Assembly (NCBI GenBank): GCA_029260575.1
Contig: JAJDDB010000004.1
Span: forward strand, 186,001 to 250,000
Direction of reading: 5' to 3'
From: Phycisphaerales bacterium
Lineage (GTDB): Bacteria; Planctomycetota; Phycisphaerae; Phycisphaerales; SM1A02
DNA length: 64,000 nt
Shown here piece by piece: positions 3,051 to 46,339 of this stretch. The position numbers and the translations under genes were made by a program. Position 1 is the stretch's first letter. Each line of letters starts with the position of its first letter. The notes beneath the pieces were generated by a model. The model searched no databases. It saw only the letters and a list, made by a program, of their open reading frames with translations, and was not told the origin of the DNA.

Positions 3051-3277
3051 CCGCGATCGCCAACGCCACCAATCCGGAGCCTCCCGAGGACCGCGGGATC
3101 CTGTGTCCGAAGTGTGGCTGCGGACACTTCCGCGTGATCTACACGCGGAAGGCGGCTCGGGGCCGGCTGGTCCGGCGGCGCGAATGCCGACATTGTGGCC
3201 GACGGGTGACGACTACGGAGCAGTTGCTCGGCGCCGTATCCACGCCCTCAGACGATCGAGATCGGTCGGCCGAGTGA
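3047..3277 (+). CDS. zinc-ribbon phage protein
   Basis: A 76-aa protein starting in an ATGA overlap with the terminase stop. Two pairs of cysteines, CPKCG near residue 24 and CRHCG near residue 46, flank a basic segment (RRRE) and are followed by RRVTTTE. That layout resembles the N-terminal zinc ribbon of NrdR and, more loosely, Ogr/Delta-type phage activators. DNA binding or a transcriptional role is plausible but not shown. The coupling to the terminase suggests it is expressed with the packaging genes. Confidence 0.7.
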   Translation: MTAIANATNPEPPEDRGILCPKCGCGHFRVIYTRKAARGRLVRRRECRHCGRRVTTTEQLLGAVSTPSDDRDRSAE

Positions 3278-3371
3278 CAATCTTCGCGGTGAATGTCTAC
3301 ATGCGTAACAACCTGCGGTGACGGCGGTAATCTGCAGCGATTGGGTCCGCCCTCGTGACAGTACATGGTGG

Positions 3372-3578
3372 ATGGACGTCTTGGCTCCGCCGCCGAACGA
3401 CGACCAGCATCTCGCGCTCGAGCTGCGGCTGACGCCGCGCGATGATCGGGCAGATGCGGTCCAGGAGGCGTGGGTCGCACATCTCGAGGGGCGCAACCCC
3501 GCGAGAGCCGTCGCGACCTACGCCCAGCGAGAGCGACGGCACCGCGAGCGTCAACCAGCCATCGGATCGGTCCATTGA
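3372..3578 (+). CDS. small charged phage protein of unknown function
   Basis: A 68-aa protein if started at the ATG at 3372; a GTG at 3318 in the same frame would add 18 residues. It is rich in Arg, Glu and Asp, with the recognisable segment AVQEAWVAHLEG followed by a basic helix ending in ERRHRERQ. I associate this pattern with small proteins of planctomycete prophages between terminase and portal, but no function is known to me. It lies in the + strand packaging operon, 22 nt before the next gene. Confidence 0.5.
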   Translation: MDVLAPPPNDDQHLALELRLTPRDDRADAVQEAWVAHLEGRNPARAVATYAQRERRHRERQPAIGSVH

Positions 3579-3599
3579 CCGGTGCCGTAGGAGAGACCA

Positions 3600-3797
3600 G
3601 TGCCCGAACCGCTCGACGACAAGATCCGCCAGAACGCTGAGGGCCCGAAGAAGGCCTCAGGCGATGCCGGCAGCGTCGAGCAGCACGATCTGACAGACCA
3701 GATCGAGGCGGACCGCTACCTGAACTCGAAGGGCGCGGTCAAGAAGAAGGGGCTCGGGATCAAGGTGACCCGCGCCATCCCGCACGGAACCGTTTGA
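3600..3797 (+). CDS. small conserved phage protein upstream of the portal gene
   Basis: A 65-aa hydrophilic protein with a GTG start at 3600 and an AGGAGAGA ribosome binding site. Notable segments are DKIRQNAEGPKKASGD near the N-terminus and ADRYLNSK near the middle. It ends directly before the portal gene, with which its stop forms a TTGA overlap if the portal used the TTG at 3794. Its place between terminase and portal matches head-tail accessory or scaffold-type genes, but I cannot assign a family. Confidence 0.6.
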   Translation: MPEPLDDKIRQNAEGPKKASGDAGSVEQHDLTDQIEADRYLNSKGAVKKKGLGIKVTRAIPHGTV

Positions 3798-3811
3798 GGA
3801 CGCGAGCACGG

Positions 3812-5293
3812 ATGCTCACTCGACTCGTCAATGCACTGGCAGCTGCTCGCGCGCGGCACGACAGCGGCGTCCCCGACGCTGCGGACACCGCCAATGCGGC
3901 GACGCCGGTCATTGCCCTGCGGCCTCTTCGCGCCCGCTACGACGCGGCGGTGACCACGGACGGAAACCGCCGCCATTGGGCGAACGCGGACGGACTCAGT
4001 GCGGACTCGGCCACGAGTCCCGAGGTCCGGCGCGTCCTGCGCAACCGCGCCCGCTACGAGGTCGCCAACAACAGCTACGCACGCGGCATCGTGTGCACGC
4101 TCGCCAATGACGTAGTGGGCACCGGGCCGCGACTTCAGATGCTGACCGGAGACCCGGACGCCGATCGACGCATCGAGGCAGCCTTCAATGAGTGGGCGTG
4201 CGCGGTGAGCCTGGCGGCCAAGCTCCGCACGATGCGGATGGCCCGCGCCGAGTCGGGGGAGAACTTCGTCCTTCTGGCCCGCAATCCGCGGCATGCTTCC
4301 CCGGTGCAACTTGACGTCCGCCTCATCGAGGCTGACCAGGTCGCAACACCTGACCTCCGCGCGACCGATACCACGGCCATCGATGGCATCGTCTTTGACG
4401 AAGTCGGCAACCCGCTCGAGTACCACGTCCTGAAGCAGCACCCCGGCGACCTTCGCTGGGTGAGCGGTATGCAGTACGACCGCATCTCCGCCGACGTCAT
4501 TGTGCACTACTTCCGCGCCGACCGGCCCGGGCAGAGTCGCGGTATTCCCGACATCACGCCCGCGCTGCCGCTGTTTGCGCAGCTTCGACGATTCACGCTG
4601 GCGGTCATCGCCGCCGCGGAGACCGCAGCCGACTTCGCGGGCGTCCTCTACACCGACGCACCCGCGAACGGTGAAGCAGAGGACGTCGAGCCCATGGACG
4701 CCATCGAGCTGGAGCAGCGCATGCTGCTGACCATGCCCGGCGGCTGGAAGATGGCTCAGCTCAAGGCCGAGCAGCCGGCCACGACCTATGGAGAGTTCAA
4801 GCGCGAGATCCTCAATGAGATCGCGCGCTGTCTGAGCATGCCGTTCAACGTCGCGGCAGGCAATTCGTCGGGCTACAACTACGCCTCCGGGCGCCTTGAT
4901 CACCAGACCTACTTCAAGAGCATCCGAATCGAGCAGGCGCACATCGAGCGCACCGTGCTTGATCGGATCTTCGCAGCATGGCTGCAGGAGGCCGTCCTCG
5001 TCGAAGGGCTGCTTCCGCAATCGATGCGCACGCGCGACGCCGACGCTCGTCGCGAGAAGCACCAGTGGTTCTGGGACGGCACCGAGCACGTCGATCCGGC
5101 AAAGGAAGCGAACGCACAAGCGACTCGCCTTGCGAGCCGGACCACGTCACTGGCGCGCGAGTACGCGCGCCAGGGCCTCGATTGGGACGCAGAGCTGCAC
5201 CAGATCGCCAAGGAGCGCGAGCTCATGGCGTCTCTCGGTATCGCACCGGCTGACATGAACAGTGCCGGCCGAGATGAAGGACGAGGACGATGA
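3812..5293 (+). CDS. phage portal protein, lambda family
   Basis: A 493-aa protein forming the dodecameric DNA gate at the head vertex. The N-terminal half has RARYDAA and the segment NNSYARGIVCTLANDVVG, which are typical of lambda gpB-type portals, and a later part has YNYASGRLDHQ. I chose the ATG at 3812 because a GAGGA lies 11 nt upstream; a TTG at 3794 is possible. Length is close to lambda portals (about 530 aa). It is followed by the protease-capsid gene in an ATGA overlap. Confidence 0.88.
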   Translation: MLTRLVNALAAARARHDSGVPDAADTANAATPVIALRPLRARYDAAVTTDGNRRHWANADGLSADSATSPEVRRVLRNRARYEVANNSYARGIVCTLANDVVGTGPRLQMLTGDPDADRRIEAAFNEWACAVSLAAKLRTMRMARAESGENFVLLARNPRHASPVQLDVRLIEADQVATPDLRATDTTAIDGIVFDEVGNPLEYHVLKQHPGDLRWVSGMQYDRISADVIVHYFRADRPGQSRGIPDITPALPLFAQLRRFTLAVIAAAETAADFAGVLYTDAPANGEAEDVEPMDAIELEQRMLLTMPGGWKMAQLKAEQPATTYGEFKREILNEIARCLSMPFNVAAGNSSGYNYASGRLDHQTYFKSIRIEQAHIERTVLDRIFAAWLQEAVLVEGLLPQSMRTRDADARREKHQWFWDGTEHVDPAKEANAQATRLASRTTSLAREYARQGLDWDAELHQIAKERELMASLGIAPADMNSAGRDEGRGR

Positions 5294-7356
5294 CCGCGAA
5301 GACTGATCTGCCGGACATCCTGGCGATGGACTGTGAGGTCGCGATCGAAGCAGCGGCGCCGGCAACCGACGACGGGGGCGACTCCCTCCCTCGTTTCTCG
5401 ATGGTTGCCTACACCGGCGGCCCGATCCGGACGCTCGGATTCTCGTATCCCGTCGTCGTCAACCTCGATGGGATGTCGATCCCGACGCAGCGCCGACCCG
5501 TGCGATTCCAGCACTCGGCGTTCGAGGGCGTCGGCCACACGGAACGCATCGCCGTCGAAGACGGGCAGCTCGTCGCCGAGGGGCTCGTCTCCCGAGACAC
5601 CGCTGCTGCCCAGGAGATCGTCGCGAGCGGGAAGAAGGGCTTCCCCTGGCAGGCGTCGATCGGCGCGTCGGTGGACGAGCTCGAGTTCATCAAGCGCGAC
5701 GTCGCCGTGACCGTGAACGGCCGGAAGTTCAACGGCCCGATCTACGTCGCCCACAAGACGACTCTCAACGAAATCAGCTTCGTCGATCTCGGCGCGGACC
5801 AGCAGACGCGGGCCCGAATCGCTGCGCAGCACCACAAGGAGACGCAGGCCATGCCTGACCACCGGACCCCCGGCAATCCCCAGCCCACCGACACGGATGT
5901 TGCGGCCACTGCTCCCGAGCCGATCAGCGACAACGTGGCGACCGTGCCGGCCGAGCCCCATCGGAGCGGCAACATCACCGCCAGCGACCCCGCCGCCGAG
6001 ATCGATCAGATCACAGCCCGCGCCCGAGCGGAGTCGGATCGCCGCCAGCGGATCCAGTCAATGACGGCTGAGGTCCTGGCTCAGCGACCGGAACTCGCCG
6101 ACGACCTCGGCAAGCTCGCCCATGCAGCGCTCGAGGCGGGGTGGAAGCCGGACAAGTACCAGCTCGAGGTCATGCGTCTCAGCCGTTCTTACAACGGCGT
6201 CGGCGGACCGCGCCGGCAGGAGGACCGCCTCGACGGGTCGGTCATCGAGGCGGCGCTGTGCATTGCCGGCGGTCTCGAAACCGACGCGCTCGAGTCGCAG
6301 TTCGCCGATCGCACGCTCGACGCGGCGAACCGGCAGTACCGCCACGGACTCGGCCTGTGTGACACGCTACTGATGTTCGCCCAAGCCAATGGCTATCGCG
6401 GTGTCAGCCGCGGCAACCTGAAAGACCTGCTCCAGTTCGCCTTCACCGATGTGCAGGCGGCGGGCTTCAGCACGCTCAGCCTTCCGGGCATCCTGTCCAA
6501 CGTCGCGAACAAGTTCCTCCGAGCCGGATTCGAAGCCGTCGAGTCCACTTGGCGCGACATCGCGGCGCTCCGCTCGGTTCGCGACTTCAAGCAGGTGTCC
6601 AGCTACTCGCTGACGGGCGGCTTCGTCTACGAGGAGATCGCGCCTGGTGGCGAGCTGAAGCACGCGACTGTCGGTGAGACGGCGTACACGAATCAGGCCA
6701 AGACCTACGGCCGGATGTTCGGCATCGATCGTCGTGACCTGATCAACGACGACCTCGATGCGCTGACGGCGGTGCCGCGCCGACTCGGCCGCGGTGGTGC
6801 TCTCAAGCTCAACGAGGTCTTCTGGGCCGAGTTCCTCAGCAACGCTGCGTTCTTCACGGTCGGCAACAGCAACTACGCCGAGGGCGTGGGCACGGCACTC
6901 GGCATCGACGCGCTGACCCAGGCCGAGACGATGTTCCTCGATCAGACCGACCCGGACGGGCATCCGCTCGCCGTTGCCCCGGTGATCCTGCTCGTGCCCA
7001 ACGGACTCTACGTCCCGGCGACGCAGATCATGAACTCGACCGAGCTGCGTGACCCGTCCTCCACCAAGAAGACGCCGGTTGCGAACCCGCATGCGGGCAA
7101 GTTCCGCCCGGTGCGCTCGAGCTATCTGAACAACCCCAAGTACACCGGCGCCAGTGGACTGGCCTGGTACATCCTCGCCGACCCCGCCGACATGCCGGTC
7201 ATCGAGGTGGCCTTCCTTAACGGTCAGCAGCAGCCGACCGTCGAGAGCGCTGACGCCGACTTCAACAACCTCGGCATCCAGATGCGCGGCTACCACGACT
7301 TCGGTGTCGCGAAACAGGAGCCGCGCGGCGGCGTGAAGATGAAGGGCGAGGCGTAA
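5290..7356 (+). CDS. prohead protease fused to Mu gpT-like major capsid protein
   Basis: A single 688-aa reading frame contains two phage functions normally encoded by separate genes. Residues about 20-190 look like a prohead protease: an FSYPVVVNLDGMS region, a QHSAFEGVGHT region with the expected His, and a WQASIGASV region with the expected Ser. A Pro/Ala/Asp-rich linker follows (about 195-260), probably scaffold-like. Residues about 300-688 resemble the Mu gpT capsid protein, with GIDRRDLINDDL and KLNEVFWAEFLSN. Self-cleavage would release the mature coat subunit. The start overlaps the portal stop (ATGA). Confidence 0.82.
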   Translation: MTAKTDLPDILAMDCEVAIEAAAPATDDGGDSLPRFSMVAYTGGPIRTLGFSYPVVVNLDGMSIPTQRRPVRFQHSAFEGVGHTERIAVEDGQLVAEGLVSRDTAAAQEIVASGKKGFPWQASIGASVDELEFIKRDVAVTVNGRKFNGPIYVAHKTTLNEISFVDLGADQQTRARIAAQHHKETQAMPDHRTPGNPQPTDTDVAATAPEPISDNVATVPAEPHRSGNITASDPAAEIDQITARARAESDRRQRIQSMTAEVLAQRPELADDLGKLAHAALEAGWKPDKYQLEVMRLSRSYNGVGGPRRQEDRLDGSVIEAALCIAGGLETDALESQFADRTLDAANRQYRHGLGLCDTLLMFAQANGYRGVSRGNLKDLLQFAFTDVQAAGFSTLSLPGILSNVANKFLRAGFEAVESTWRDIAALRSVRDFKQVSSYSLTGGFVYEEIAPGGELKHATVGETAYTNQAKTYGRMFGIDRRDLINDDLDALTAVPRRLGRGGALKLNEVFWAEFLSNAAFFTVGNSNYAEGVGTALGIDALTQAETMFLDQTDPDGHPLAVAPVILLVPNGLYVPATQIMNSTELRDPSSTKKTPVANPHAGKFRPVRSSYLNNPKYTGASGLAWYILADPADMPVIEVAFLNGQQQPTVESADADFNNLGIQMRGYHDFGVAKQEPRGGVKMKGEA

Positions 7357-7403
7357 GCCACGCATCGCACTGAGGCCGTCACCACGTGAAGGAGCAGCCA
7401 ACC

Positions 7404-7745
7404 ATGGCCACCGCAACGTTCATCCAACAGGGCGACTCGATCGACTACACACCGGGCGCCGCCGTCGGCGCCGGGGACGTGGTCGTCCTCAACGATCTCA
7501 TCGGCGTCGCCAAGCGCGACATCCCTGCCAACACCCTCGGCTCGCTCGACGTTGCAGGCGTCTTCGAGTTCCCGAAGGCCAGCGGCGTGGGCACGGCGAT
7601 CGGCGCCGGGCTCGATGTCTTCTGGGACGCGGGCAACACCGAGGCCACCACAGACAGCGGCGGCGGCACCAACAAGAAGATCGGCCGAAGCGTGCTGGCG
7701 GCCGACGACGACGCGACTACGGTCCGGATCCGGCTGAGTCAGTAA
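7404..7745 (+). CDS. DUF2190-type capsid decoration protein
   Basis: A 113-aa protein that follows the capsid gene, as DUF2190 head-stabilising proteins commonly do. The start reads MATATFIQQGDSIDYTPG, followed by VGAGDVVVLNDLIGVA, the characteristic opening of this beta-barrel family. I placed the start at the ATG at 7404, with a GAAGGAG site upstream; an in-frame GTG at 7386 is an alternative. It probably sits on the outside of the head lattice. Confidence 0.82.
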   Translation: MATATFIQQGDSIDYTPGAAVGAGDVVVLNDLIGVAKRDIPANTLGSLDVAGVFEFPKASGVGTAIGAGLDVFWDAGNTEATTDSGGGTNKKIGRSVLAADDDATTVRIRLSQ

Positions 7746-7749
7746 CCCC

Positions 7750-8133
7750 ATGGCCGACCTCCTCGAACAAGGCGCTCAGTTCCTCGACGACCAACGTCAT
7801 GCCCACATGACGCGCACCGTCGTGTATCTGCGTGGCGGCTCGTTCGTCGAGGTCGTGGCCACTGTCGGCCAGACGACTTTCGAGCAGGCCGACGAGTTCG
7901 GCGGCATCCAGCGGCTCGAGTCGCGCGACTTCCTCATCCGGACCGGCGAGTTGATCCTCGACAGTGAAGTCGTGCTGCCGCAGGCCGGCGATCGCATCGA
8001 CGAGACGGTTGGCGACCAGGTGTTCGTCTACGAGGTCATGGCGCCCGGCTCGGAGCCCCCGTTCCGGTACAGCGACCCGTATCGCAAGGCGCTTCGCATT
8101 CACACCAAGCATGTCGCGACGGAGGCCGCATGA
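7750..8133 (+). CDS. head-tail connector-like protein
   Basis: A 127-aa, mostly beta protein located between the decoration protein and the tail terminator candidate. It contains RTVVYLRGG and later FRYSDPYRKALRIHTK, which I associate with head-completion or adaptor proteins of planctomycete prophages. The assignment rests mainly on gene order. It starts 4 nt after the previous stop and ends in an ATGA overlap with the next gene. Confidence 0.6.
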   Translation: MADLLEQGAQFLDDQRHAHMTRTVVYLRGGSFVEVVATVGQTTFEQADEFGGIQRLESRDFLIRTGELILDSEVVLPQAGDRIDETVGDQVFVYEVMAPGSEPPFRYSDPYRKALRIHTKHVATEAA

Positions 8134-8552
8134 GCGTCATCACTGACATCGCCGACGCGGTGACGGCGTCACTCAACGCCGGCACCTTCGCCGAGGACTT
8201 CACGGCCGAACGGCTCCACCAGCCATCGTTCGATCTGCCCGATTTGCAGACGCTCCGCGTGAGCGTTGTGCCGAAGTCGGTCGAGATCCGTAACGCCACG
8301 CGCCAACACTCGTTCTTCGACTGCGCAGTGGACGTCGGCATCCAGCAGAAGATCGATGACGACGCCCGCGTGGATGAACTGCTCGCACTGGCGGAAGAGA
8401 TCGCCGATCACCTGCGGCTGAAGCGGCTCACCGACTATCCGCAGGCCGCCTGGGTGGCGATCGATCACGACCCCGTCGTGTCATCTGAGCATCTGGACCA
8501 GCATCGGCAGCTCACCAGCGTGCTGACGGTGACCTATCGCGTGAAGCGGTGA
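8130..8552 (+). CDS. tail terminator-like protein
   Basis: A 140-aa protein whose position and length match tail-completion/terminator proteins that cap the tail tube. It opens with SVITDIADAVTASLNAG and has a central SFFDCAVDVGIQQK segment and a C-terminal LTVTYRVKR. No definite family hit can be claimed by eye. It overlaps the previous gene by 4 nt (ATGA), consistent with coupled translation. Confidence 0.55.
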   Translation: MSVITDIADAVTASLNAGTFAEDFTAERLHQPSFDLPDLQTLRVSVVPKSVEIRNATRQHSFFDCAVDVGIQQKIDDDARVDELLALAEEIADHLRLKRLTDYPQAAWVAIDHDPVVSSEHLDQHRQLTSVLTVTYRVKR

Positions 8553-8562
8553 GGAGTTGCTC

Positions 8563-8820
8563 GTGAACACGCCCATCATTCGCAAGGTCAACCTCAGCGG
8601 CGTCTTTCAGCCGCTCGCTGCCGAACGCACCGTGGGCACGTTCACGATCCGCAACCCCTCGGCCGACAACGCCGTGCTCCTCTGTGACGACGGCGTGACC
8701 GAACTGCCTATGGACCGGAGTCAGCAGTTCACGCTCGAGGGAGTCGACCTCTCGCACATCCAGGCCAAAGGCGGTCTGGGTGACTTTCTCATGGTCACCG
8801 GCGCGACGCGGACGGTGTAA
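8563..8820 (+). CDS. small tail-module protein of unknown function
   Basis: An 85-aa protein. A GAGGAG at 8551-8556 lies 6 nt before the GTG at 8563, which decides the start over the TTG at 8557. The sequence is a compact beta pattern with TFTIRNPS and FLMVTGATRTV and no obvious motif. It sits immediately before the tail tube gene, 12 nt from its start, and is probably a virion component or a tail assembly factor. Function unknown. Confidence 0.55.
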   Translation: MNTPIIRKVNLSGVFQPLAAERTVGTFTIRNPSADNAVLLCDDGVTELPMDRSQQFTLEGVDLSHIQAKGGLGDFLMVTGATRTV

Positions 8821-8832
8821 GGAGGTACAGCC

Positions 8833-9264
8833 GTGGCCATCAAGCTCGGCATGGAAGCTACGCTCAACTACAAGGTCGGCGGCCAGGACGGCGCCGGCTC
8901 ATGGCTTGAGCTCACCAACACGAAGGACGTCACGCTCTCGCTCGAAGCGGGCGAGGCGGACGTCACCACGCGCGGCAACGACGGCTGGCGTGCGATCGTC
9001 GCCACGCTCAAGGAGGCGAGTGTCGAGTTCGAGATGGTCTGGGACACCGGCGACGCCGGGTTCGACGCCATCAAGGACGCCTACCTCGGCAACGGCATCA
9101 TCGGTCTCCAGATCCTCGACGGCGACAGCGGCGAGGGCCTTCAGGCGGACTTCATGATCACGTCGTTCTCACGCTCCGAAGCGCTCGAAGAGGCGATCAT
9201 GGTCTCCGTCACCGCCAAGGTGACGTACTCGACGACGCCCCCGAGCTGGATCGGAGGCAGTTGA
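8833..9264 (+). CDS. major tail tube protein (TP901-1 type)
   Basis: A 143-aa protein with a GTG start and a GGAGG site at 8821-8825. The segment LTNTKDVTLSLEAGEADVTT and the following RGNDGWRAIVATLK are typical of TP901-1-like major tail subunits, which polymerise into the tail tube. Length is normal for the family. It precedes the assembly chaperone genes, the standard order in long-tailed phages. Confidence 0.85.
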   Translation: MAIKLGMEATLNYKVGGQDGAGSWLELTNTKDVTLSLEAGEADVTTRGNDGWRAIVATLKEASVEFEMVWDTGDAGFDAIKDAYLGNGIIGLQILDGDSGEGLQADFMITSFSRSEALEEAIMVSVTAKVTYSTTPPSWIGGS

Positions 9265-9267
9265 TCC

Positions 9268-9759
9268 ATGAAGACCTTCACGGACAACGCCGAGCGATCC
9301 TGGAACGTGTCGATCAACGTCGCCGCCGTCAAGCGGGTGCGCGACCTGGTCGGCGTCGATCTTCTGGAGATCGTGGAAGGCACGCTCATCGAGAAGCTGA
9401 TCCGCGACCCGATCCTGCTCTGCGACATCATCTACGCCGTCTGCAAGCCGCAGGCGGAAGAGCGCGAGCCTCCCGTCACCGACGAGGAGTTCGGCCGCGC
9501 CATGGCAGGCGATGCCATCGAGCACGCGACGACCGCGCTCCTGGAGGACCTCGTGTCTTTCTGCCCGAGCCCGAGGGACCGCGCGAACCTCGGGCGGGTG
9601 CTGGAAGCGACGACTCGAGTGATGGACAGGGCGCGCGATCTGATCGAGGAGAAGCTCGACAGCGGCGAGCTGGACCGGATGGCCGAGCTGGCACTCGCGA
9701 ATGCTGGCGACTCATCTGGCAGTGCGCCGGAATCGTCGGGATCGATCCGGGCCCCTTGA
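9268..9759 (+). CDS. tail assembly chaperone (upstream frame)
   Basis: A 163-aa acidic helical protein placed between the tail tube and tape measure genes, where lambda G and equivalent chaperones lie. The start reads MKTFTDNAERSWNVSINVAA with a central DLVGVDLLEIVEGTL. The ORF runs out in a low-complexity Ser/Ala/Pro tail (about residues 142-163), while the -1 frame opens into a conserved domain from about 9702. This suggests that the tail of this ORF is read only when no frameshift occurs. Confidence 0.72.
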   Translation: MKTFTDNAERSWNVSINVAAVKRVRDLVGVDLLEIVEGTLIEKLIRDPILLCDIIYAVCKPQAEEREPPVTDEEFGRAMAGDAIEHATTALLEDLVSFCPSPRDRANLGRVLEATTRVMDRARDLIEEKLDSGELDRMAELALANAGDSSGSAPESSGSIRAP

Positions 9760-9995
9760 CCCTTCGTGAACTGCTCGCGATGGCCGACGGGCGTCAGCGA
9801 TCGGAGTGGGCACGCAACTCGGCCCTCATGGCGCTGATCGCGAACACGCAGCGTGATCCCAAGAAGACTCGCGCGTTGCGGCCCAGCGACTTCGATCCGT
9901 TTGCACGCACGGCGTCGGCGACCCGGGTTGGCGTTGGCGTGCTGAAGACCGTGTTCATCGACAAGACGCTTCCGAAGGAGGCGCTCGCCAAATGA
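9696..9995 (+). CDS. tail assembly chaperone, -1 frame extension (candidate frameshift product)
   Basis: The frame one base behind the chaperone gene carries a conserved-looking domain beginning CWRLIWQCAGIVGIDPGPLT and continuing through LRELLAMADGRQRSEW and DPKKTRALRPSDFDPF. I know the W...G.....LTLREL.AM..GR pattern from tail proteins of related prophages. No ATG, GTG or TTG is available in this frame just upstream of the conserved start, so a -1 ribosomal shift out of the 9268 gene is the likely source. An internal ATG at 9780 would lose the conserved N-terminus. The left boundary given is approximate. Confidence 0.6.
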   Translation, partial: RECWRLIWQCAGIVGIDPGPLTLRELLAMADGRQRSEWARNSALMALIANTQRDPKKTRALRPSDFDPFARTASATRVGVGVLKTVFIDKTLPKEALAK

Positions 9996-10476: not shown

Positions 10477-12819
10477 TTGGCCAACACCAGCGGCATCCGC
10501 GCCGGCCGCGCGTTCGTAGAACTTGGCGTCAGCGACAAGCTGACGGCCGGGCTCAGGCGCGCGCAGCGTCGCCTCCAGACATTCGGCAACAGTGTCCGCG
10601 CAATTGGCACGCGGTTGACCGCCATCAGTGCCGGCATTGGTGCTGGCTTCGCAATCTCCACGCGTGTGTTCGCTGGCTTCGACGATCGCATGCGCGTCGT
10701 CCGCGCCGTGACGGGCGCGACCGAGCAGCAGTTTGAGTCGCTGCGGGAAGAGGCGAAGCGCCTCGGCCGCACGACGTCGTTTACCGCTGGCCAGGTCGCC
10801 GAGGCCATGACCGAACTTGGCCGCGCCGGCTTTGATCCGCAGGCGATCCTCGACAGCACCGAAGCGGTGCTCGCGCTGTCCCGTGCGACGAGCACCGAGT
10901 TGCCGCGTGCGACCGAGATCGCAGGCGCGGCGCTTCGCGGTTTCAACCTGCCCGCCACCGAGATGGGCCGCATCTCTGACGTGCTCACCGCCACCGCGAA
11001 CAAGAGCGCCCAGACGCTTGAGGAACTGTTCGAGGCCTTCAAGCCGGTCGCGCCGCTCGCGGTCGAGGCCGGCGAGAGCATTGAGGACGTGGCTGCCGCG
11101 ATCGGCATCCTCGCCAACAACGGCATCAAGGGGAGCCTCGCCGGCAATGCACTGGCCCGGGCGTACAAGAACCTCGCCAACGAGTCACGGCAGGCCGAGC
11201 TTCGCCGGATCGGCGTAGAGGCCGTGGACGCTGCGGGCAACCTCCGGCCATTGGCCGACATCATCAACGATCTGGCCAAGGCCACACAGGGACTCGGCTC
11301 GGCAGAGCGCCTGGCCATCTTCGAGTCATTGTTCGGGCGCGGCCAGGCGGCAGCGCTCAAGCTGGCTTCGTCAGGCCAGGCCTTCGACACGCTTCGGAAT
11401 GAGATCCAGCGTTCCGCAGGGATCGCGGTGCAGACCGCCGACCAGATGGATGCCGGGATCGGCGGTGCGTTCCGACGGCTGCTCTCTGCCGCCGAGGGAA
11501 TCGCCATTGCCATCGGGGAAGCGATCGAGCAGCCCGTGCGCCGGGCGGCCGATGCCTTGGCCAAGATCGCGGGATGGATCACCAAGGTCGTCAATCGCAA
11601 CCGCGAGCTCATCGCGACGATCGCCAAGGTCACCGCGATCATGCTGGGCGTGGGGATCGCGCTCGTCGTCGCCGGGGCTGCGATCGTCGGGCTCGGTGCT
11701 GTCTTCGGGTCGCTGGCCACGGTCATCGCGGGCGTGGGCACAGCCCTCGGCGTCATCGCCTCTGTCCTTGGCGCCCTGCTGTCTCCCATCGGGCTGATCG
11801 TGGCCGCCGTGGTCGGCCTCGGCGCGGCACTGATCATCTCGACTGGCGTGGCCGGCGACGCGCTCGAATGGCTCGGCGATCAGTTCGGCAAGCTCCGCGA
11901 GCGAGCCACGAAGGTCGTTCAGGGGATCACGGACGCCCTGGCCGCCGGTGACGTGGCACTCGCCGCCGAGATCCTCTGGCTCTCGCTCAAGCTGATCTGG
12001 CAGAAGGGCGTGGCGGCGCTCAACTCGGTCTGGCTTTCCGCCCGGAACTTCTTCATCACGACCGCGCAGAAGATGTGGTTCGGCGCCCTCGCAGCGGCGC
12101 AGATCGTCTGGCACGCGCTGGAGGTCGCGTGGATCGAGACCACCGCGTTCCTCTCGAAGACATGGACACGTTTCGCCACCGGCTTCAAGAAGATCTGGGA
12201 GAGCGCGACGTCGTTCGTTGCCAAGCGAATGTTGGAGATCCAGGGCCTCTTCGACTCGTCGCTGGATGTGGATGCGGCGAAGCAGGCGGTTGATGACCAG
12301 CTCGACTCGCGTCTGGCGGAACTCGATTCGGAGGGACAACGAGCGCTCGACGAACGTGAACGTCGGCGGCAGCGTCAGCGTGACCAGTCGGCCGACCTGA
12401 ACGAGGGCACACTCGCCGAGATCGGCCGCCAGTTCGAGGAGGCGCAGGAGAAGCTGCGCCAGGCCACCGACGACAAGATCGAGGAGACCCAACGCGAACT
12501 CGATGCCGCCCGAGCGAAGCTGGACGAAGCGATCGAACGCGCCCGCCGTCAACGCGAGGAGGGCGACGAGGATGCCGGTCCGGCGGCGCGAGGCACACCG
12601 CAAGACCTGCTCGATGAACTCCAGGAGCGCATCGCTGGCCTCGGTCAGACGATCGCTCGTGGTGTGACCGTGCGAGGCACGTTCAACGCGGCCGCCGCCC
12701 AAGGGCTCCTCGGCGGAGCGGACGCACAGGAGCGGACCGCGACCGCCACCGAACAGACCGCACGCAACACGAAACGGCTCGTCGATGCCGCGAGGAACGG
12801 AGGTCTGGCGTTCACGTAG
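10477..12819 (+). CDS. phage tail tape measure protein
   Basis: A 780-aa protein that sets tail length. The start is TTG at 10477 with GGAGGA 6 nt upstream. Residues about 65-330 form the TP901-type core (DDRMRVVRAVTGATEQQF, LGRTTSFTAGQVAEAMTELG, ANNGIKGSLAGNALARAYKN). A strongly hydrophobic, Gly/Ala/Val-rich region at about 380-455 gives several membrane-like segments, and the last 200 residues are a charged coiled coil rich in Glu, Arg and Gln. At about 780 residues and roughly 1.5 Angstrom per residue, a tail of around 120 nm is a rough expectation. Confidence 0.88.
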   Translation: MANTSGIRAGRAFVELGVSDKLTAGLRRAQRRLQTFGNSVRAIGTRLTAISAGIGAGFAISTRVFAGFDDRMRVVRAVTGATEQQFESLREEAKRLGRTTSFTAGQVAEAMTELGRAGFDPQAILDSTEAVLALSRATSTELPRATEIAGAALRGFNLPATEMGRISDVLTATANKSAQTLEELFEAFKPVAPLAVEAGESIEDVAAAIGILANNGIKGSLAGNALARAYKNLANESRQAELRRIGVEAVDAAGNLRPLADIINDLAKATQGLGSAERLAIFESLFGRGQAAALKLASSGQAFDTLRNEIQRSAGIAVQTADQMDAGIGGAFRRLLSAAEGIAIAIGEAIEQPVRRAADALAKIAGWITKVVNRNRELIATIAKVTAIMLGVGIALVVAGAAIVGLGAVFGSLATVIAGVGTALGVIASVLGALLSPIGLIVAAVVGLGAALIISTGVAGDALEWLGDQFGKLRERATKVVQGITDALAAGDVALAAEILWLSLKLIWQKGVAALNSVWLSARNFFITTAQKMWFGALAAAQIVWHALEVAWIETTAFLSKTWTRFATGFKKIWESATSFVAKRMLEIQGLFDSSLDVDAAKQAVDDQLDSRLAELDSEGQRALDERERRRQRQRDQSADLNEGTLAEIGRQFEEAQEKLRQATDDKIEETQRELDAARAKLDEAIERARRQREEGDEDAGPAARGTPQDLLDELQERIAGLGQTIARGVTVRGTFNAAAAQGLLGGADAQERTATATEQTARNTKRLVDAARNGGLAFT

Positions 12820-12831
12820 CGCCCAACTGCC

Positions 12832-13638
12832 ATGCCCGTCGTCGTTGAAGAGAAGTTCGACAGCCGCCTCTCGGTCGCCGGTGACAACCCGAGCGTCGAG
12901 CTGCGGTACGTCGTCTTCGGGACGAGCGATGACCTCGAAGCCAAGAGCGAACTGGCCACGGCCTCGCCCACGACCTACGACGACCTCCCGCGCCAGTCGA
13001 TCCAGATCGAGCCGTTGGCCAACGACATCTGGGACGGGTCCGTCCGCTACGGCATCACGGAAGGCAACGACCCGCCGCAAACCGGTGAGTCCTCGTTCGC
13101 CTTCGACACAGGCGGCGGCACTCAGCACATCACGCAGAGCCGCGCGACGATCAACTCGTACGCGCCGTCCGGCGAGACGGCGCCGGACTTCCAGGGCGCG
13201 ATCGGTGTCACGGACAACGGCGTCGAAGGCGTGGACGTCACCGTGCCCGTCTACCAGTTCTCGGAGACGCACTATCTCGATGACGCCGTCGTGACGCCCG
13301 CCTACAAGGGCACGCTGTTCGGCCTCACCGGCACCGTCAACAGCGGCTCGTTCAAGGGCCTGGCCGAAGGCGAGTGTCTGTTCCTCGGTGCGTCCGGTTC
13401 GAAGCGTGGCATCGGCGACTGGGAGATCACCTTCCGCTTCGCGGGCAGCCCCAACGTGACCGGTCTGTCGGTCGGACCGATCACCGGGATCAGCAAGAAG
13501 GGCTGGGAGTACCTCTGGGTTCGGTACGCAGAGGTCGAGGATGAGGGCGCCCAGGTCCTGGTCAAGCGCCCCGTCGCCGCTTACGTCGAGCGAGCGTACG
13601 ACTCCGGCAACTTCGCCGCACTGGGGATCGGAACATGA
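12832..13638 (+). CDS. tail-tip or distal tail protein
   Basis: A 268-aa beta-rich protein directly after the tape measure gene, where distal tail or baseplate hub genes lie. It opens with MPVVVEEKFDSRLSVAG and has QSRATINSYAPSGETAPDF and a C-terminal GWEYLWVRY segment. The start ATG lies 12 nt after the tape measure stop. No enzymatic motif is visible. The role is inferred from position and composition. Confidence 0.6.
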   Translation: MPVVVEEKFDSRLSVAGDNPSVELRYVVFGTSDDLEAKSELATASPTTYDDLPRQSIQIEPLANDIWDGSVRYGITEGNDPPQTGESSFAFDTGGGTQHITQSRATINSYAPSGETAPDFQGAIGVTDNGVEGVDVTVPVYQFSETHYLDDAVVTPAYKGTLFGLTGTVNSGSFKGLAEGECLFLGASGSKRGIGDWEITFRFAGSPNVTGLSVGPITGISKKGWEYLWVRYAEVEDEGAQVLVKRPVAAYVERAYDSGNFAALGIGT

Positions 13639-14642
13639 CCGGCGATCTGCGCAAAGTACGGACGGGCGACCCGCTCCGCATCCCGGCGCCGACGTACAAC
13701 GCGTTCGTGGACGCGGCACATCTGGCACGCCGCATCGACTCCGATACCGGTGCCGGCCCGGCGCTGCGTGGGCCGAATGAGCACCTGATCCTGGTGCGCA
13801 ACGAGTCCGGCACCGACCTCCCGCGGTTCGGCATTCTCGGCATCGATCGCCCGATCATCGAGCCGGGGCCGGAAGGCAACACCGACGAGTTCAAGCGACG
13901 CGCGGCGCTGATCGGCGCGGCGATCACGCCAACCGACGAGTACGTCGGCCGTTTCGTCGTGGCGCGCGAACCGATCGCGGCTGGCAAGATCGGCTGGTCG
14001 GTGATCCGGGGCGTCACGCCCGCGATGGTCAACGTCATCGACGACGAGCACTCGCACGCTGACACGTACCCGGACGAGCAGGCACTTCGAAGCGGCTTCA
14101 CCGGCGCGGCTCGCATCCTCTGGAAGGAGCCGGGCTCAGGGGAACTGCTCGCGCTGATCGAGATGGGGCCGGCGGATCGGGATCGGATCGGCGCCCGGCT
14201 TGGATCGGCGACGCTGATCGAAGGCCGGACCTTCGGCTGGCTCTACGAGTGGGAAGAGGTCCGCCTGGACGGCGACTCATTCAGTTCGACGTTCGGGCAG
14301 TACATCCGGCCCGGCGGCTCGGCTGCCGAAGGTTGGCTGGCATCCAACGGCGACCCGACGAAGCTCGCGTTCAACCGCTACGAGGCGCACCTCTCGGTGA
14401 TCCACTCGCAAGGCGGTGGGACCGAAGGATTCGCCAATGGCGCCGCTTGCCTGATCCCCGGCGCGCTGGAGAACTGCCCGCCACGGCGGGCGGCCGTGCC
14501 CATGCTCCATCCGATTCCTGAGGACGTTGTGGTCGAGCTGCGGGCCGAGCGCACGTTTCAGGCAGAGACGCGGTTCGTGTTCGAGGCGCTGAATCCGATC
14601 GTGCTCTGCGACATGGACGTCCCGGAGTCGTGGTATGGCTGA
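13635..14642 (+). CDS. tail or baseplate protein of unknown fold
   Basis: A 335-aa protein with an ATGA overlap with the previous tail gene. It reads MTGDLRKVRTGDPLRIPAPT at the start, contains LGIDRPIIEPGPEGN and a C-terminal half rich in Gly, Trp and aromatic residues. I associate the opening with structural proteins next to tail tips in planctomycete phages, but no family is certain. It overlaps the methyltransferase gene downstream by 8 nt, so it is part of the same translational unit. Confidence 0.55.
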   Translation: MTGDLRKVRTGDPLRIPAPTYNAFVDAAHLARRIDSDTGAGPALRGPNEHLILVRNESGTDLPRFGILGIDRPIIEPGPEGNTDEFKRRAALIGAAITPTDEYVGRFVVAREPIAAGKIGWSVIRGVTPAMVNVIDDEHSHADTYPDEQALRSGFTGAARILWKEPGSGELLALIEMGPADRDRIGARLGSATLIEGRTFGWLYEWEEVRLDGDSFSSTFGQYIRPGGSAAEGWLASNGDPTKLAFNRYEAHLSVIHSQGGGTEGFANGAACLIPGALENCPPRRAAVPMLHPIPEDVVVELRAERTFQAETRFVFEALNPIVLCDMDVPESWYG

Positions 14643-15201
14643 TCCGCGGACACAGTCAAACACAATCGTGCGCCGGCGCGAGGCTGAGCGCGCCAAGTAC
14701 GTGAGGCTCGCCGCCGAGCGTCAGGGGTACGGCGCGACCAACCACGGCCGCCACGCCTACGCGACGGTGATCGAGTGGCAACCGAGGTTCGTCGTGGACT
14801 TCGGTTGCGGCGACAACGCGTTCATGCGCGAGCTGCGCCGGCGCCACATCGACGGGCTGGGCATCGACTTCGTCAACGAGCAGGCAGACATCGTCGCGGC
14901 GATGCACTGCGTTCCGCTCGCCAATGGCATTGCGGATGTCGTGACGTCGTTCGACGCGCTCGAACATCTGCTACCGGAGGACGTCGATCCGGTGCTCGCG
15001 GAGATGCGCCGACTCGGGCGCTCGGGTGGCTACTTCATCTTCTCGATCTCCACCCGGCCGAGTCGGATCACGGTCGATGGTGCGAATCTGCATCCGACTG
15101 TTCGGACGCAGGACTGGTGGGTCGATCGGATCTCTCGCGTGGGCCGAGTCGAGTCGGCTGGCTTGCGCGGACGCTACATCACAGGGACGTGGCATGCGTG
15201 A
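14635..15201 (+). CDS. class I SAM-dependent methyltransferase
   Basis: A 188-aa protein with the SAM-binding motif VVDFGCGDNAF near residues 52-62 followed by GLGIDFV and a VVTSFDALEHL motif typical of small-molecule or protein methyltransferases of the Methyltransf_11 kind. There is no DPPY or NPPF motif, so DNA methylation is unlikely. It overlaps the previous tail gene by 8 nt and the next gene by 8 nt. It is a phage-borne enzyme embedded in the tail operon; the substrate is unknown, and a tail or cell-surface component is a reasonable guess. Confidence 0.75.
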   Translation: MADPRTQSNTIVRRREAERAKYVRLAAERQGYGATNHGRHAYATVIEWQPRFVVDFGCGDNAFMRELRRRHIDGLGIDFVNEQADIVAAMHCVPLANGIADVVTSFDALEHLLPEDVDPVLAEMRRLGRSGGYFIFSISTRPSRITVDGANLHPTVRTQDWWVDRISRVGRVESAGLRGRYITGTWHA

Positions 15202-16060
15202 TCATGACGGAGACATCGCGGCGTTGCAGGCGGGCCTGCACCTCAAACGACCGGCCAAGAGCGGCGTACGCCTCTACACCACGGACTTCGACAGCATCTC
15301 GCTGGCCGACTTCTACCGTGGGCGACAGGCGTTCCTCGTCCTGTCGGGGCCGTCGCTCGCGGAGCACGATCTGTCCCAGCTCAACACACGCGGCATCGTG
15401 ACGATGGGCGTGAACAACTCGTGGTCGGTGCACCGTCCAACGCTCTGGACTTGCGTCGATTCGCCGGGGCGGTTCATCGACACAGGCTGGAAGGATCCGG
15501 GCATCCTGAAGTTCGTGCCGATGTCGGCCTGGAACGGCCGGCTCCGGATTCAAAAGCCGAACGGCACCATGAAGCCGAGCGCCTTCCGCGTGAAGCAGAT
15601 GCCTTCCGTCCTGCTCTACCGGCGCGGCGAGCACTTCGACCACAGGCGCTTCCTGGACGAGGACACGGTCTGCTGGGGCAACAACGGTGCGAAGAAGGAC
15701 TCGCTTGGCATCAAGGGCAAGCGGTCCGTGATGCTCGTGGCGCTGCGGCTCCTGCACTACCTCGGGTTCCGCACGGTGTATCTGGTCGGCGCGGACTTCA
15801 AGATGGCCGACGACCAGAAGTACGCGTTCGACGAGTCGCGAACCAACGCCGCCATCCGCCACAACAACGTCCTCTACGACGCGCTCAACCAGCGCTTCGC
15901 CGCGATGCGAGACTACTTCAGGCAGTCGAAGTTCACCGTCCTGAACTGCACGCCGGACAGCGGGCTGACCGCGTTCAACCATCTCCCGTTCGACGAGGCG
16001 ATCCGGAAGGCCTCGGCCGAGTGCGGCAAGCCGGTGAACACGAAGGGCTGGTACTCATGA
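15194..16060 (+). CDS. DUF115-like protein (putative glycosyl or pyrophosphokinase fold)
   Basis: A 288-aa protein starting at the ATG at 15194, which overlaps the methyltransferase by 8 nt. The motif FLVLSGPSLAEHD near residue 47 matches the GPSL signature of DUF115/MAF-like and some sialyltransferase-like enzymes, followed by GIVTMGVNNS. A later YLVGADFKMA has the form of a second conserved strand. The expected activity is transfer to a sugar or a related surface group. It ends in an ATGA overlap with the Hint-domain gene. Confidence 0.6.
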   Translation: MRDHDGDIAALQAGLHLKRPAKSGVRLYTTDFDSISLADFYRGRQAFLVLSGPSLAEHDLSQLNTRGIVTMGVNNSWSVHRPTLWTCVDSPGRFIDTGWKDPGILKFVPMSAWNGRLRIQKPNGTMKPSAFRVKQMPSVLLYRRGEHFDHRRFLDEDTVCWGNNGAKKDSLGIKGKRSVMLVALRLLHYLGFRTVYLVGADFKMADDQKYAFDESRTNAAIRHNNVLYDALNQRFAAMRDYFRQSKFTVLNCTPDSGLTAFNHLPFDEAIRKASAECGKPVNTKGWYS

Positions 16061-17304
16061 CCACCGAAGGACCGAAGTACTTCCTCTATATCCCCGTCTG
16101 GGCGACGACGCAGCAGCCACCGGGAAGTGGCACGTCCAGCCTGAGCAGTAGCGAGAGTCCCAGCTCGAGCGAGACGGACACGCCAGCGACACCGAGCTCG
16201 ACAGAAACGGCGTCGAGTTCGACGGAGAGCAGCACCGAGACGGCCACGCCATCAAGCAGCCCGTCGAACTCGTCAATGAGCACCGAGGGCACGGAGTCAT
16301 CGAGCGGTGGTGGCGGCACTTCGGGTGGTGGAACATCCGGTGGAGGCGGAACGTCAGGCGGCGGAGGCACCTCGGGTGGTGGCGGTACCTCTGGTGGTGG
16401 TTCATCTGGCAGCGGCGGCAGCTCGTCCGGGAGCAGTGCGAGCTCGACCGAGGGCAGCCCCTCTTCGTCGGGGAGCATGTCGTCCGGTAGCAGTTCATCG
16501 CAGAGCAGCAGCTCATCCGAATCAAGCAGCGCGTCCTCTGGGAGTGGCAGCGGCTCGTCGGGCAGCGGAAGCGGGTCCGGCAGTGGCAGTGGGAGCGGTT
16601 CCGGATCGAGCAACTGCCTGTTGTGTGGCACGCTTGTCACGATGGCGGACGGTCGGCGCGTGCCGATCGAGTCACTCAACCCGGGTGACATGCTGCGCTC
16701 GGTATCGCTGCCCGGACTCAAGACAGACGTTCCATTCCGCGCGCAGTACGAATGGCTCTCGACGTGGGGACTGGAGGGCGCGACCGTGCGCGACGGCCGC
16801 GTTGCCGAAGTGCGTCTCGGCGAACACGACGGCTTCTACCTCATCAACCGCCGTATCAAGGCGACGTTCGAGCACCCGTTCCTGGTGCGCCGTGACGAGG
16901 CATGGGGCTTCTGCTCGGCCGAGTTGCTCAAGGTGGGTGACTACCTGACGACGCTCGTGGACGGTCAGCTCGACGAGGAGCGCCTCGACGCAATCGAACG
17001 CATCGACGGCGCCGTGCGGACCGTGGCGATCCACATCCCAGGCACGAACACGTACTTGGCCGAAGGCGTGTGGACACACAACGACGCAAAGTCGTCGGAC
17101 CCAGCCGCGGGAGTATCCGCCCAATCGAGCGGGCCAGGCTTCTCCAACTCCGGGGGAAGCGGAACGGGCCCGAGCCTCTCTGTCTTGTCGAGCTCGTCGT
17201 CCAGCGAATCGAGCAGCGGCAGCAAGTCGAGCGGGTCAAGCTTCTCGTCGTCTGGCGAGAGTTCGGTCGTCATCAGCAATACGGGCGAGAGCACGGTGGA
17301 ATAG
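16057..17304 (+). CDS. Ser/Gly-rich tail-module protein with internal Hint (intein-like) domain
   Basis: A 415-aa protein (the in-frame opening further upstream belongs to the previous gene's shadow). Residues 1-25 are a short conserved head, 26-185 are low complexity (Ser/Thr/Glu, then GGGTSGGG repeats, then SGSGSG). A Hint domain spans residues 187-342: Cys187 starts CLLCGTLVTMADG, a block-B TFEHPF follows, and the domain ends with VWTHN (His341-Asn342). A second Ser-rich tail runs to the end. Asn342 is followed by Asp, not Cys/Ser/Thr, which fits a bacterial intein-like domain that cleaves rather than splices. It closes the phage tail operon. Confidence 0.85.
   Translation: MTTEGPKYFLYIPVWATTQQPPGSGTSSLSSSESPSSSETDTPATPSSTETASSSTESSTETATPSSSPSNSSMSTEGTESSSGGGGTSGGGTSGGGGTSGGGGTSGGGGTSGGGSSGSGGSSSGSSASSTEGSPSSSGSMSSGSSSSQSSSSSESSSASSGSGSGSSGSGSGSGSGSGSGSGSSNCLLCGTLVTMADGRRVPIESLNPGDMLRSVSLPGLKTDVPFRAQYEWLSTWGLEGATVRDGRVAEVRLGEHDGFYLINRRIKATFEHPFLVRRDEAWGFCSAELLKVGDYLTTLVDGQLDEERLDAIERIDGAVRTVAIHIPGTNTYLAEGVWTHNDAKSSDPAAGVSAQSSGPGFSNSGGSGTGPSLSVLSSSSSSESSSGSKSSGSSFSSSGESSVVISNTGESTVE
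16305..16610 (+). repeat. degenerate GGGTSGGG / SGSG coding repeats
   Basis: This stretch codes for about eight Gly-Gly-Gly-Thr-Ser-type units and then Ser-Gly dipeptides. Codons for the same residue differ between units (GGT, GGC, GGA; TCG, TCT, TCC), so the amino-acid pattern is kept while the DNA is not identical. This argues for selection on a flexible linker just before the Hint domain. Confidence 0.8.
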
Positions 17305-17623
17305 TGCTTCTTGGGCGCCCAGACCCAGCGGCCGTGTCACTCCGACCGTCAAATCGACAAAGAATCTCTGCACTTTCTCTGGGCCAGGTGACGTGTCTCT
17401 CGGTGCGTACGTGCCTCCCAGGCGGGTCCCGTTAGCGATCCGGACGCTTCTGGCAAACCTGGGAGGCGGCATGTCGACGCAGGGCACGGTCGGTGCCTGG
17501 GCTTCCGTTCGGCTCCAGGCGACCGCCGATCGCACATTGACAACGCGCGCCTCAGCAGCCTGACCACGCGGACGAGTCCGCCCTGGTGACGCTGTCGGTG
17601 CGCACCCGCGAAAGGAATGAAAC
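17305..17623. other. intergenic gap at the end of the phage module with a long-spaced inverted repeat
   Basis: This 319-bp gap separates the phage genes from the desaturase. It contains a perfect 10-bp inverted repeat, GCCTCCCAGG at 17413-17422 and its complement at 17458-17467, with a 35-nt spacer. A short palindrome TGGGCGCCCA lies at 17314-17323. No T-run follows either, so a standard terminator is not supported. A TTGACA at 17537-17542 has no good -10 partner. It may contain the prophage boundary. Confidence 0.5.
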
Positions 17624-18907
17624 ATGGCTAGTTTGACGACGCCCGTGCGCGCCGATCGAGAGCCCGATCGGCGCGACGAAGTATCAATGCGGCTCCAGGC
17701 CGGCGGTGTGGCCGGCCGCCTTGCTGATCGGTTCGTGACGCTCGTCTGCGGCCTCGCACCCTCAGACCAGAGGCCGCTGATGGTTTGGACGCGCCACACC
17801 TTCTATGCGGCGGTGCTCCTGTGGCTGCTCGGCGGCACGGCCGGATCGGCGCTCATCATGCTGTACCTGCCGATCTGGGCATGGCCACTTCTTGCGATCA
17901 CGCTCTTCATCACGACCGCCGGCGCGCGGGCGGGCATGCTCACCATCATGCACGACGCGATCCACATGTCGGTCGAGCACAAGCGTCCCGCGGTCCGGTG
18001 GTTCTTTGATGCCATCGGTCACCTCATGAGCACGGCGTTGTTCGTGATCGGCCAGACGCCTTATCGCGAGGGGCACGTCGGCAAGCGCGGCCATCACAAT
18101 GCCCGCATCTTCGCCACCCTCGACGATGAAGACGTGCGATTCATCTGGAGCCTTGGCTTCAAGCCGGGGATGTCCGAACGCGAATTGTGGCGGCGATTCC
18201 GGAAGCTGCGGTGGCATCCCTGGTACCACTGGACTTACCTGAAGGCCCGCTTCGAGAGCCAGATTCTCCAGGGCGCGTGGGCACGCCGTCTTGCGGTCGC
18301 CGCGTTCTGGCTCGTCCTGTTCGGGCTCGCGGCCGCCAACGGCTGGCTCATCGTGCTTCTCGTCGCGTGGGTGCTGCCCGTCACGGTCCTCTTCCAGCGG
18401 GTCGCGCTTGAGCAGTTCCTCGGTGAACACCGCTGGCTTGGCGGCCACGCCCCGGACGCTCCGACGCGCAACCTGCCGGTCAAGCTTAGCGCCGGACGGT
18501 TCGCGCTTGACGCCCCGCCAACTCCATCGGCGTCCCGCATCCGCAGCACGCTCGCGTGGATCGCTTGGTGGATCAAGCTGCTGACGGTCCACGTCCGGTT
18601 CCGTGCCCTCGTTGTCTGGGGCGACCTGGCCCACCACGACGAGCACCACGCGCACGGGCTCATGAAGATCTATCGGCGCGGGCATCGCCTGCCCCGATGG
18701 GCACAGCCCGAGATCGCGTGGATGAATATGGCGTACGGCCGCCGGCTCTATGAGGAGTACAAGCGGCCCGAGGACCCGGAGTTGAACGCATTCTGGAACG
18801 CTCCGGACCCCATCGCCGCAACGTTCGCGATGCTCAGTTCGCTCAACCCCGACGAGGTCGGCGAACCCGACTTCGACGGACTCGGACCCGGCATGATCGT
18901 GATGTAG
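17624..18907 (+). CDS. membrane fatty acid desaturase
   Basis: A 427-aa integral membrane di-iron enzyme that would introduce a double bond in acyl chains. Three histidine clusters are visible: MHDAIHM near residue 110, GKRGHHNARI near residue 152 and LAHHDEHHAHG near residue 335. Hydrophobic segments at about 60-105 and 225-260 frame them. Length is typical. The start ATG at 17624 follows GAAAGGA by about 10 nt. It reads as a host gene directly beside the phage module; carriage by the phage cannot be excluded. Confidence 0.82.
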   Translation: MASLTTPVRADREPDRRDEVSMRLQAGGVAGRLADRFVTLVCGLAPSDQRPLMVWTRHTFYAAVLLWLLGGTAGSALIMLYLPIWAWPLLAITLFITTAGARAGMLTIMHDAIHMSVEHKRPAVRWFFDAIGHLMSTALFVIGQTPYREGHVGKRGHHNARIFATLDDEDVRFIWSLGFKPGMSERELWRRFRKLRWHPWYHWTYLKARFESQILQGAWARRLAVAAFWLVLFGLAAANGWLIVLLVAWVLPVTVLFQRVALEQFLGEHRWLGGHAPDAPTRNLPVKLSAGRFALDAPPTPSASRIRSTLAWIAWWIKLLTVHVRFRALVVWGDLAHHDEHHAHGLMKIYRRGHRLPRWAQPEIAWMNMAYGRRLYEEYKRPEDPELNAFWNAPDPIAATFAMLSSLNPDEVGEPDFDGLGPGMIVM

Positions 18908-32142: not shown

Positions 32143-32170
32143 TACGCGGTTCTCACTCGGTCATCGATCG

Positions 32171-41025: not shown

Positions 41026-41036
41026 GAAGGAACCAA

Positions 41037-45029: not shown

Positions 45030-45035
45030 GAGTGC

Positions 45036-46322: not shown

Positions 46323-46339
46323 TCGCCGACGTGTACGTC

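Follow-up and report, generated by a model that had tools for sequence, protein, structure and literature searches.

What would a self-processing domain of the intein superfamily do in a phage protein that offers it no enzyme to restore? Inteins described in phages, that of phiCbK TerL for example, share this fold superfamily and sit in enzymes, namely terminase, ribonucleotide reductase, helicase and metallophosphatase (PMC3556154, PMC5259590, PMC5526547, PMC8790156, PMC12613952), whereas the domain considered here lies between two flexible arms. It is encoded in a 64,000-nucleotide stretch, hereafter the window, of a Phycisphaerales bacterium (GenBank assembly GCA_029260575.1, contig JAJDDB010000004.1, positions 186,001 to 250,000), where the late operon of a prophage ends with a gene for a Ser/Gly-rich protein with a Hint domain. 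We propose, at a probability of roughly 0.45, that this type-A-like bacterial intein-like (BIL) domain would hand the N-terminal arm of the protein to a lysine of its C-terminal arm, cross-linking or branching virion fibres. The predicted fold, the intact active residues, purifying selection, the late-operon position and a Hint-linked lysine motif are observed, and from these, with characterized BIL domains as analogues, we infer activity, chemical steps, lysine acceptor and virion location. The parts of the protein are as follows.

16057-17304, + strand: Hint-bearing Ser/Gly-rich late protein, 415 residues, closing the prophage late operon
16078-16104, + strand: N-terminal anchor peptide YFLYIPVWA (residues 8-16), present in Hint-bearing and Hint-less homologues
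16105-16614, + strand: N-arm, a low-complexity Ser/Gly/Thr/Pro linker up to Asn186 (position -1), with no Lys and no Cys
16615-17082, + strand: Hint domain, residues 187-342, with Cys187 in block A, T270-x-E-H273 in block B and a C-terminal His341-Asn342
17083-17301, + strand: C-arm, Ser-rich, first residue Asp343 (position +1), with K345 and K390 as its only lysines
17224-17244, + strand: conserved motif K390-S-S-G-S-S-F, containing the proposed acyl-acceptor lysine and absent from five Hint-less homologues

A complete Hint domain between low-complexity arms

Translation of 16057-17304 yields Cys187, the TFEHPF block with T270 and H273, and His341-Asn342 followed by Asp343, exactly where an initial annotation of this DNA had placed them. 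That annotation had also read the domain as BIL-like and flanked by flexible arms, a view borne out by profile and structure comparisons alike. Searches with the single sequence match weakly (Pfam Intein_splicing at E 0.0045, below the cut-off; NCBIfam intein_Nterm at E 0.016 for the domain alone; PHROGs at only E 0.057), and a profile of 18 relatives reaches 2LWY, a BIL domain of solved structure, at E 5e-6, its top sequence-profile match in the PDB. An AlphaFold2 model of the domain (predicted local distance difference test score, pLDDT, 93.1; predicted template modelling score, pTM, 0.87) has the horseshoe β fold of the Hint superfamily, with Z scores of 14.8-20.6 to 50 Hint or intein entries among the matches listed. 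The best of these is BIL2 of Tetrahymena thermophila (6y75; Foldseek E 6e-9, Z 20.6, root-mean-square deviation 1.4 Å over 136 residues), followed by the Ssp DnaB intein (Z 19.6; DnaB inteins as a group, 19.3-19.6) and the Clostridium thermocellum BIL (2lwy, Z 19.0), which we treat as tied with the DnaB inteins, as we do all matches differing by at most one Z unit; the Hedgehog Hint domain 1at0 reaches Z 17.7. Like the window domain, the C. thermocellum BIL has Cys1, TxxH and His-Asn; the window domain itself is without a canonical +1 nucleophile.

Residue counts were taken from 139 unique full domains, those whose match spans the profile among 143 unique hits, four partial ones being left out; the 139 are not independent and cluster into 27 representatives. 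The block A nucleophile Cys1 and a block B TxEH, conforming to the T-x-x-H of type A BIL domains, are kept in all 139, and the terminal His-Asn in 138. Position +1, which in type A BIL domains is no nucleophile, is Asp in the window and in 127 domains overall, Thr, a possible nucleophile, in 6, Ala and Gln in 2 each, and Tyr and Leu in 1 each. Ratios of nonsynonymous to synonymous substitution rates (dN/dS) in six pairs are 0.07, 0.07, 0.08, 0.09, 0.12 and 0.25. Because the residues are conserved in 139 unique domains and dN/dS lies at 0.07-0.25, their chance occurrence is very unlikely, and sequence and model together support the conclusion that the window protein carries a complete Hint domain of the bacterial intein-like type. 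An inactive relic, kept as a structural spacer, is barely credible: degenerate copies do occur (locus L110 ends in His-His, L016 is truncated and ends in His-Ser, and L095 has lost N-arm and motif), but the active residues are near-invariant and evolve under the low dN/dS just given, and the TFEHPF block is itself the block B that the initial annotation had imagined a relic to lack.

Two further assignments were rejected. A canonical, class 1 intein is at odds with Asp343 in place of Cys, Ser or Thr at +1 (Thr in 6 of the 139 relatives) and with low-complexity arms as flanks; a toxin pre-domain (PT-HINT) is at odds with the window Hint being followed only by a Ser-rich arm and no toxin domain. 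The Pfam PT-HINT family is matched by 15 of the 27 A4 members at E ≤ 0.01 and not by the window domain.

A conserved C-arm lysine as candidate acyl acceptor

The C-arms of the family share a lysine. K-x-S-G-S-S is found in 134 of the 139, with neither Arg nor His ever in the lysine position; at least one lysine is present in 138 and exactly one in 74, which makes a C-extein lysine available as in BIL2. Four of the five C-arms outside the motif (L115, L148, L162 and L181) retain a lysine, and the fifth, from the broken copy L095, has none. The 11 unique Hint modules at loci that join the module to a different late protein, c3 (described below), all hold the lysine motif, with Asp, Gln or Ala at +1, and none of the five complete Hint-less homologues has K-x-S-G-S-S; a stricter pattern, [SG]K[SG]SGSS[FM], occurs 0 times in the non-Hint open frames of the fetched loci. 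The 108 unique N-arms (20,046 residues) contain zero lysines and zero cysteines, and the 133 unique C-arms (11,579 residues) zero cysteines. Lysine-free N-arms are weak evidence on their own, as G+C-rich low-complexity coding could partly explain them, and an argument from cysteine was dropped, a single Cys in the five Hint-less arms against none in the Hint-bearing ones being too few.

In the mechanism we favour, a precursor virion arm protein would contain an active type-A-like BIL Hint domain, in which an N-S shift would load the N-arm (anchor peptide and Ser/Gly linker) onto Cys187 as a thioester. The ε-amine of K390, from the same or a neighbouring chain, would most likely attack this thioester, and cyclization of Asn342 would part the Hint domain from the C-arm and expel it, giving a Ser/Gly fibre that is branched or cross-linked through isopeptide bonds, the kind of product reported for T. 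thermophila BIL2. Splicing by BIL2 joins the C-terminus of the N-extein to a lysine of the C-extein domain through an isopeptide bond and without ATP (PMC8616854). Like the phage Hint, BIL2 lies between two extein domains, in the BUBL1 polyubiquitin locus (6y75, 6tmm); unlike it, BIL2 is eukaryotic and has folded, ubiquitin-like flanks instead of low-complexity arms, and the two are 24% identical in the structural alignment. Transfer to lysine is favoured because the +1 residue varies across the phage family while the C-arm lysine is kept. The initial annotation had suggested that self-cutting might release or cross-link a surface-exposed segment, and the second of these ideas fits a conserved C-arm motif that is absent from Hint-less homologues and a top structural match reported to form isopeptides. 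More tentatively, we suggest that these phages may use isopeptide protein splicing to branch or cross-link their surface fibres covalently, an ATP-free stapling of the virion coat that would use a lysine of the same or a neighbouring subunit and a portable module.

The main rival to lysine transfer is plain autocleavage, in which hydrolysis at Cys187 and Asn cyclization after Asn342 would trim or release the arms during virion maturation, the conserved motif serving as a docking, glycosylation or packaging signal. Asn stands at -1 in 136 of the 140 domains whose match starts at profile position 1, and in intein fusions Asn at that position promotes cleavage; the prevailing Asp at +1 (127 of 139) points the same way. 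Type A BIL domains, with their His-Asn end and no +1 nucleophile, yield mainly cleavage products (PMC4031507, PMC7664689). Plain cleavage nevertheless leaves unexplained why the C-arms retain Lys and not Arg, why the N-arms are lysine-free and why the motif is absent from the Hint-less clade, and we consider it unlikely.

Splicing of type A BIL domains has also been proposed to proceed via the freed α-amine (PMC4031507). In the window protein the α-amine of Asp343 would then attack the thioester after cyclization, joining N-arm and C-arm head to tail without the Hint domain. This would suit the natural Hint-less homologues, which share the N-terminus and the C-end, and the six of 139 domains with Thr at +1. 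The +1 residue is variable (D, T, A, Q, Y, L), however, deletion of Hint alone would not account for the Hint-less homologues, which are without the KSSGSS part too, and A-type BIL domains are described as unable to ligate their flanks in PMC7765530, contrary to PMC4031507, in which, furthermore, one BIL spliced only once its +1 residue had been mutated to Cys. We therefore rank head-to-tail splicing after plain cleavage and regard it as distinctly improbable.

Relatives in cultured phages bear on a third alternative. A related Hint domain ends a collagen-repeat protein in Erwinia and Dickeya phages (51 records, the best 20 of 51 at 30-32% identity), labelled putative tail protein in AD1, virion structural protein in SNUABM_32 and hypothetical in many others. 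Like the window protein, the Alexandravirus examples (Dickeya phage AD1, Erwinia phage pEa_SNUABM_32) are repeat-rich, putative tail proteins with Cys, HEHP and His-Asn (30% identity over 159 residues); unlike it, they consist of collagen repeats, a region of uncertain fold and then Hint, with Gly at -1, Thr at +1, no KxSGSS and 10 residues past the Asn. In two Alexandravirus loci (L284 and L285, 5026-6465), the gene for the collagen-like tail protein with C-terminal Hint is followed by further collagen-like tail genes. The 10 residues of AD1, and the six of L181 (32% identical), leave hardly any C-extein to splice, as might be expected if, in the manner of Hedgehog, the N-arm thioester were passed to an amine, alcohol or sterol-like molecule of the host envelope or virion, anchoring the arm; the strong structural match to 1at0 (Z 17.7) agrees with this. 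Yet the C-terminal Asn, of which Hedgehog has no need, is retained in 138 of 139 domains, and the window Hint is followed by a Ser-rich arm instead of a further folded region: on reading, only this low-complexity arm was seen where the Hog sterol-recognition region would lie, no dedicated search having been made. Hedgehog-like transfer is, in our view, a long shot.

Several points weigh against lysine transfer as well. The motif lysine lies anywhere from 21 to 58 residues past the Asn, so that there is no fixed geometry; the SGSS(F/M) that follows it could equally be a docking or modification site; and the window C-arm has a second lysine, K345. The Asp at +1 in 127 of 139 domains is left unexplained by transfer to lysine, and the Thr of six others could splice conventionally. 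Absence of the motif from the Hint-less clade counts as a single event, in C-arms that are otherwise rearranged, the 139 sequences reduce to 27 cluster representatives, and the Alexandravirus relative does without K-x-S-G-S-S. The chemistry, finally, is a proposal drawn from anatomy and conservation.

Genomic setting

The initial annotation's placement of the gene in a phage tail module holds in its first half: gene order supports a phage late protein, whereas the tail, over another place in the virion, is a location that we infer. The late operon runs in the order terminase, portal, capsid/protease, head-tail joining, tail tube, tape measure, c8, c3, c2, c1 and Hint.

765-9995, + strand: late-operon section for head and tail tube
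765-3050, + strand: terminase large subunit
3812-5293, + strand: portal
5290-7356, + strand: capsid/protease
7750-8133, + strand: head-tail joining
8833-9264, + strand: tail tube
10477-12819, + strand: tail tape measure protein (PhageMin_Tail E 4e-49; PHROG 1533 E 1e-90)
12832-13638, + strand: c8, a conserved late protein encoded downstream of the tape measure (no Pfam match; weak PHROG match, E 0.008)
13635-14642, + strand: c3, late protein of unassigned fold, whose N-terminal part is fused to the arm-Hint-arm module in other phages
14635-15201, + strand: c2, S-adenosylmethionine methyltransferase-like (Pfam Methyltransf_11 E 2.8e-11)
15194-16060, + strand: c1, sialyltransferase/MptE-like, a possible glycosyltransferase directly upstream of Hint (PHROG 4603 E 3.6e-9)

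The PHROG search for c1 used a longer reading frame beginning at 15026; Pfam gave CST-I and MptE-like matches below the cut-off only, and a PDB sialyltransferase matched at E 0.03. The start codon of the Hint gene overlaps the stop of c1 (ATGA, 16057-16060), which suggests translational coupling. As the scripted gene caller split the low-complexity Hint frame, its start was taken from the coordinates of the initial annotation, this overlap and the conserved anchor peptide. The AlphaFold2 model of c3 is poor (pLDDT 54.6) and was left unused, c3 has no match among cultured phages, and c2 is shortened in L036 and L037. A scan of 15900-18000 found no promoter-like site and two minus-strand terminator-like sites against 0.8 expected.

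Early genes, including a recombinase-like gene recognized by eye, lie upstream of the window. The gene after Hint encodes a fatty-acid desaturase (17624), and it and the genes that follow look host-type. A search for attachment-site (att) repeats of the prophage gave matches of 11-12 bases only, and Rfam and tRNA searches of the whole window found none. Elsewhere in the window, a second phage-like stretch at 38237-48416, with a serine recombinase (38734), a ParB/DNA methylase (41711) and a helix-turn-helix protein (43994), looks like a partial prophage of similar kind; a small protein within it (47924-48151, minus strand) resembles one at 189-413 on the same strand. Three long adjacent open reading frames at 28990-36291, minus strand, resemble a restriction-modification operon, as judged by eye.

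Distribution and natural variants of the module

The same genome carries a second Hint copy on a different contig, with 87% identity across the Hint domain, and the domain occurs in 15 of the 101 genomes searched, this one included. A scan of GTDB contigs gave 95 relatives, of which 80 were kept, and IMG/VR gave 49 loci. The GTDB relatives are mostly titled Phycisphaerae, Phycisphaerales, Phycisphaeraceae or Planctomycetes; a few titled Rhizobiaceae, Cyanobacteria, Leptolyngbya, Nevskiales or Dehalococcoidia are perhaps misassigned. Among BFVD models, similar folds appear in phage proteins whose names refer to fibronectin type III, PASTA or collagen repeats.

Setting aside 16 of the resulting 129 Hint loci that have too little upstream sequence, we scored 113: c1 is the nearest upstream profile hit, within 1600 bases, in 98, the module is fused to c3 in 9, and 6 show neither (L095, L124, L128, L130, L158 and L181). 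On these counts the candidate of a host rather than a phage gene was rejected. By eye, the Hint gene of L095, L124 and L130 is truncated upstream and has recombinase-like or host-like neighbours in place of a late operon, while L128 and L158 retain more of the N-arm, the late genes being absent and the neighbours of L158 again recombinase-like or host-like; these five look like prophage remnants, with internal deletions, it seems, in L095, L124, L130 and L158. Several viral contigs (L183, L184, L189, L212 and others) stop right after c1 or within the Ser/Gly arm. Such ends at repeats may reflect assembly breaks or gene-end trimming, and arm proteins of this kind may be undercounted.

Five homologues (L207, L217, L232, L239 and L241) follow c1 and keep the anchor peptide, a GPGGSGPGG linker and the C-end, and have neither Hint nor K-x-S-G-S-S. 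These five and two partial loci form one clade (100/98) in a 53-row tree of c1, nested in a larger, starred group whose other members bear Hint. If the root, which relies on the midpoint and on four long-branched outside rows, is correct, this is most simply read as a single loss of Hint. The nine c3-fusion loci, some near-identical, lack c1 and c2 within the sequence fetched; in L106, L109 and L166 an arm-Hint-arm module splits c3 in two and a second Hint module sits on the second piece, and the pair could act in trans. Carried by the anchor-peptide protein, by c3 or by both pieces of a split c3, the arm-Hint-arm module is, by its sequence distribution, portable.

Genes for DXD sugar-transferase domains (PF04488) follow Hint in L038 and L039, by Pfam matches on two L038 genes and one L039 gene. 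Within one phage subgroup, post-Hint glycosyltransferase genes lie at 10600-11894 in L038, 9428-10036 in L039 and 4089-4766 in L040, the last assigned by blastp clustering only. Together with c1, the PF04488 neighbours point to possible glycosylation of the Ser-rich arms. A glycosyltransferase as required partner of Hint was rejected, and arm glycosylation is taken as a separate trait, because c1 occurs without Hint (the five Hint-less loci) and Hint without c1 or c2 (the nine c3-fusion loci).

Implications

Searches of open-access PMC papers yielded no description of Hint-bearing virion arms. Reviewed BIL domains lie in hypervariable regions of bacterial proteins (PMC7765530); the one described here is carried by a phage late protein, together with an anchor peptide, a -1 Asn and a C-arm lysine motif. 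Fold and chemistry are known; within the reach of our searches, what is new is the phage-arm setting, the lysine motif and the portability of the module. Natural controls exist in the Hint-less relatives and the c3 fusions, and lysine transfer predicts one product. If it is true, BIL domains would gain a defined job in phage assembly, and the capsid chainmail, a known covalent cross-linking in phage capsids, would be joined by an ATP-free way of covalently linking virion proteins.

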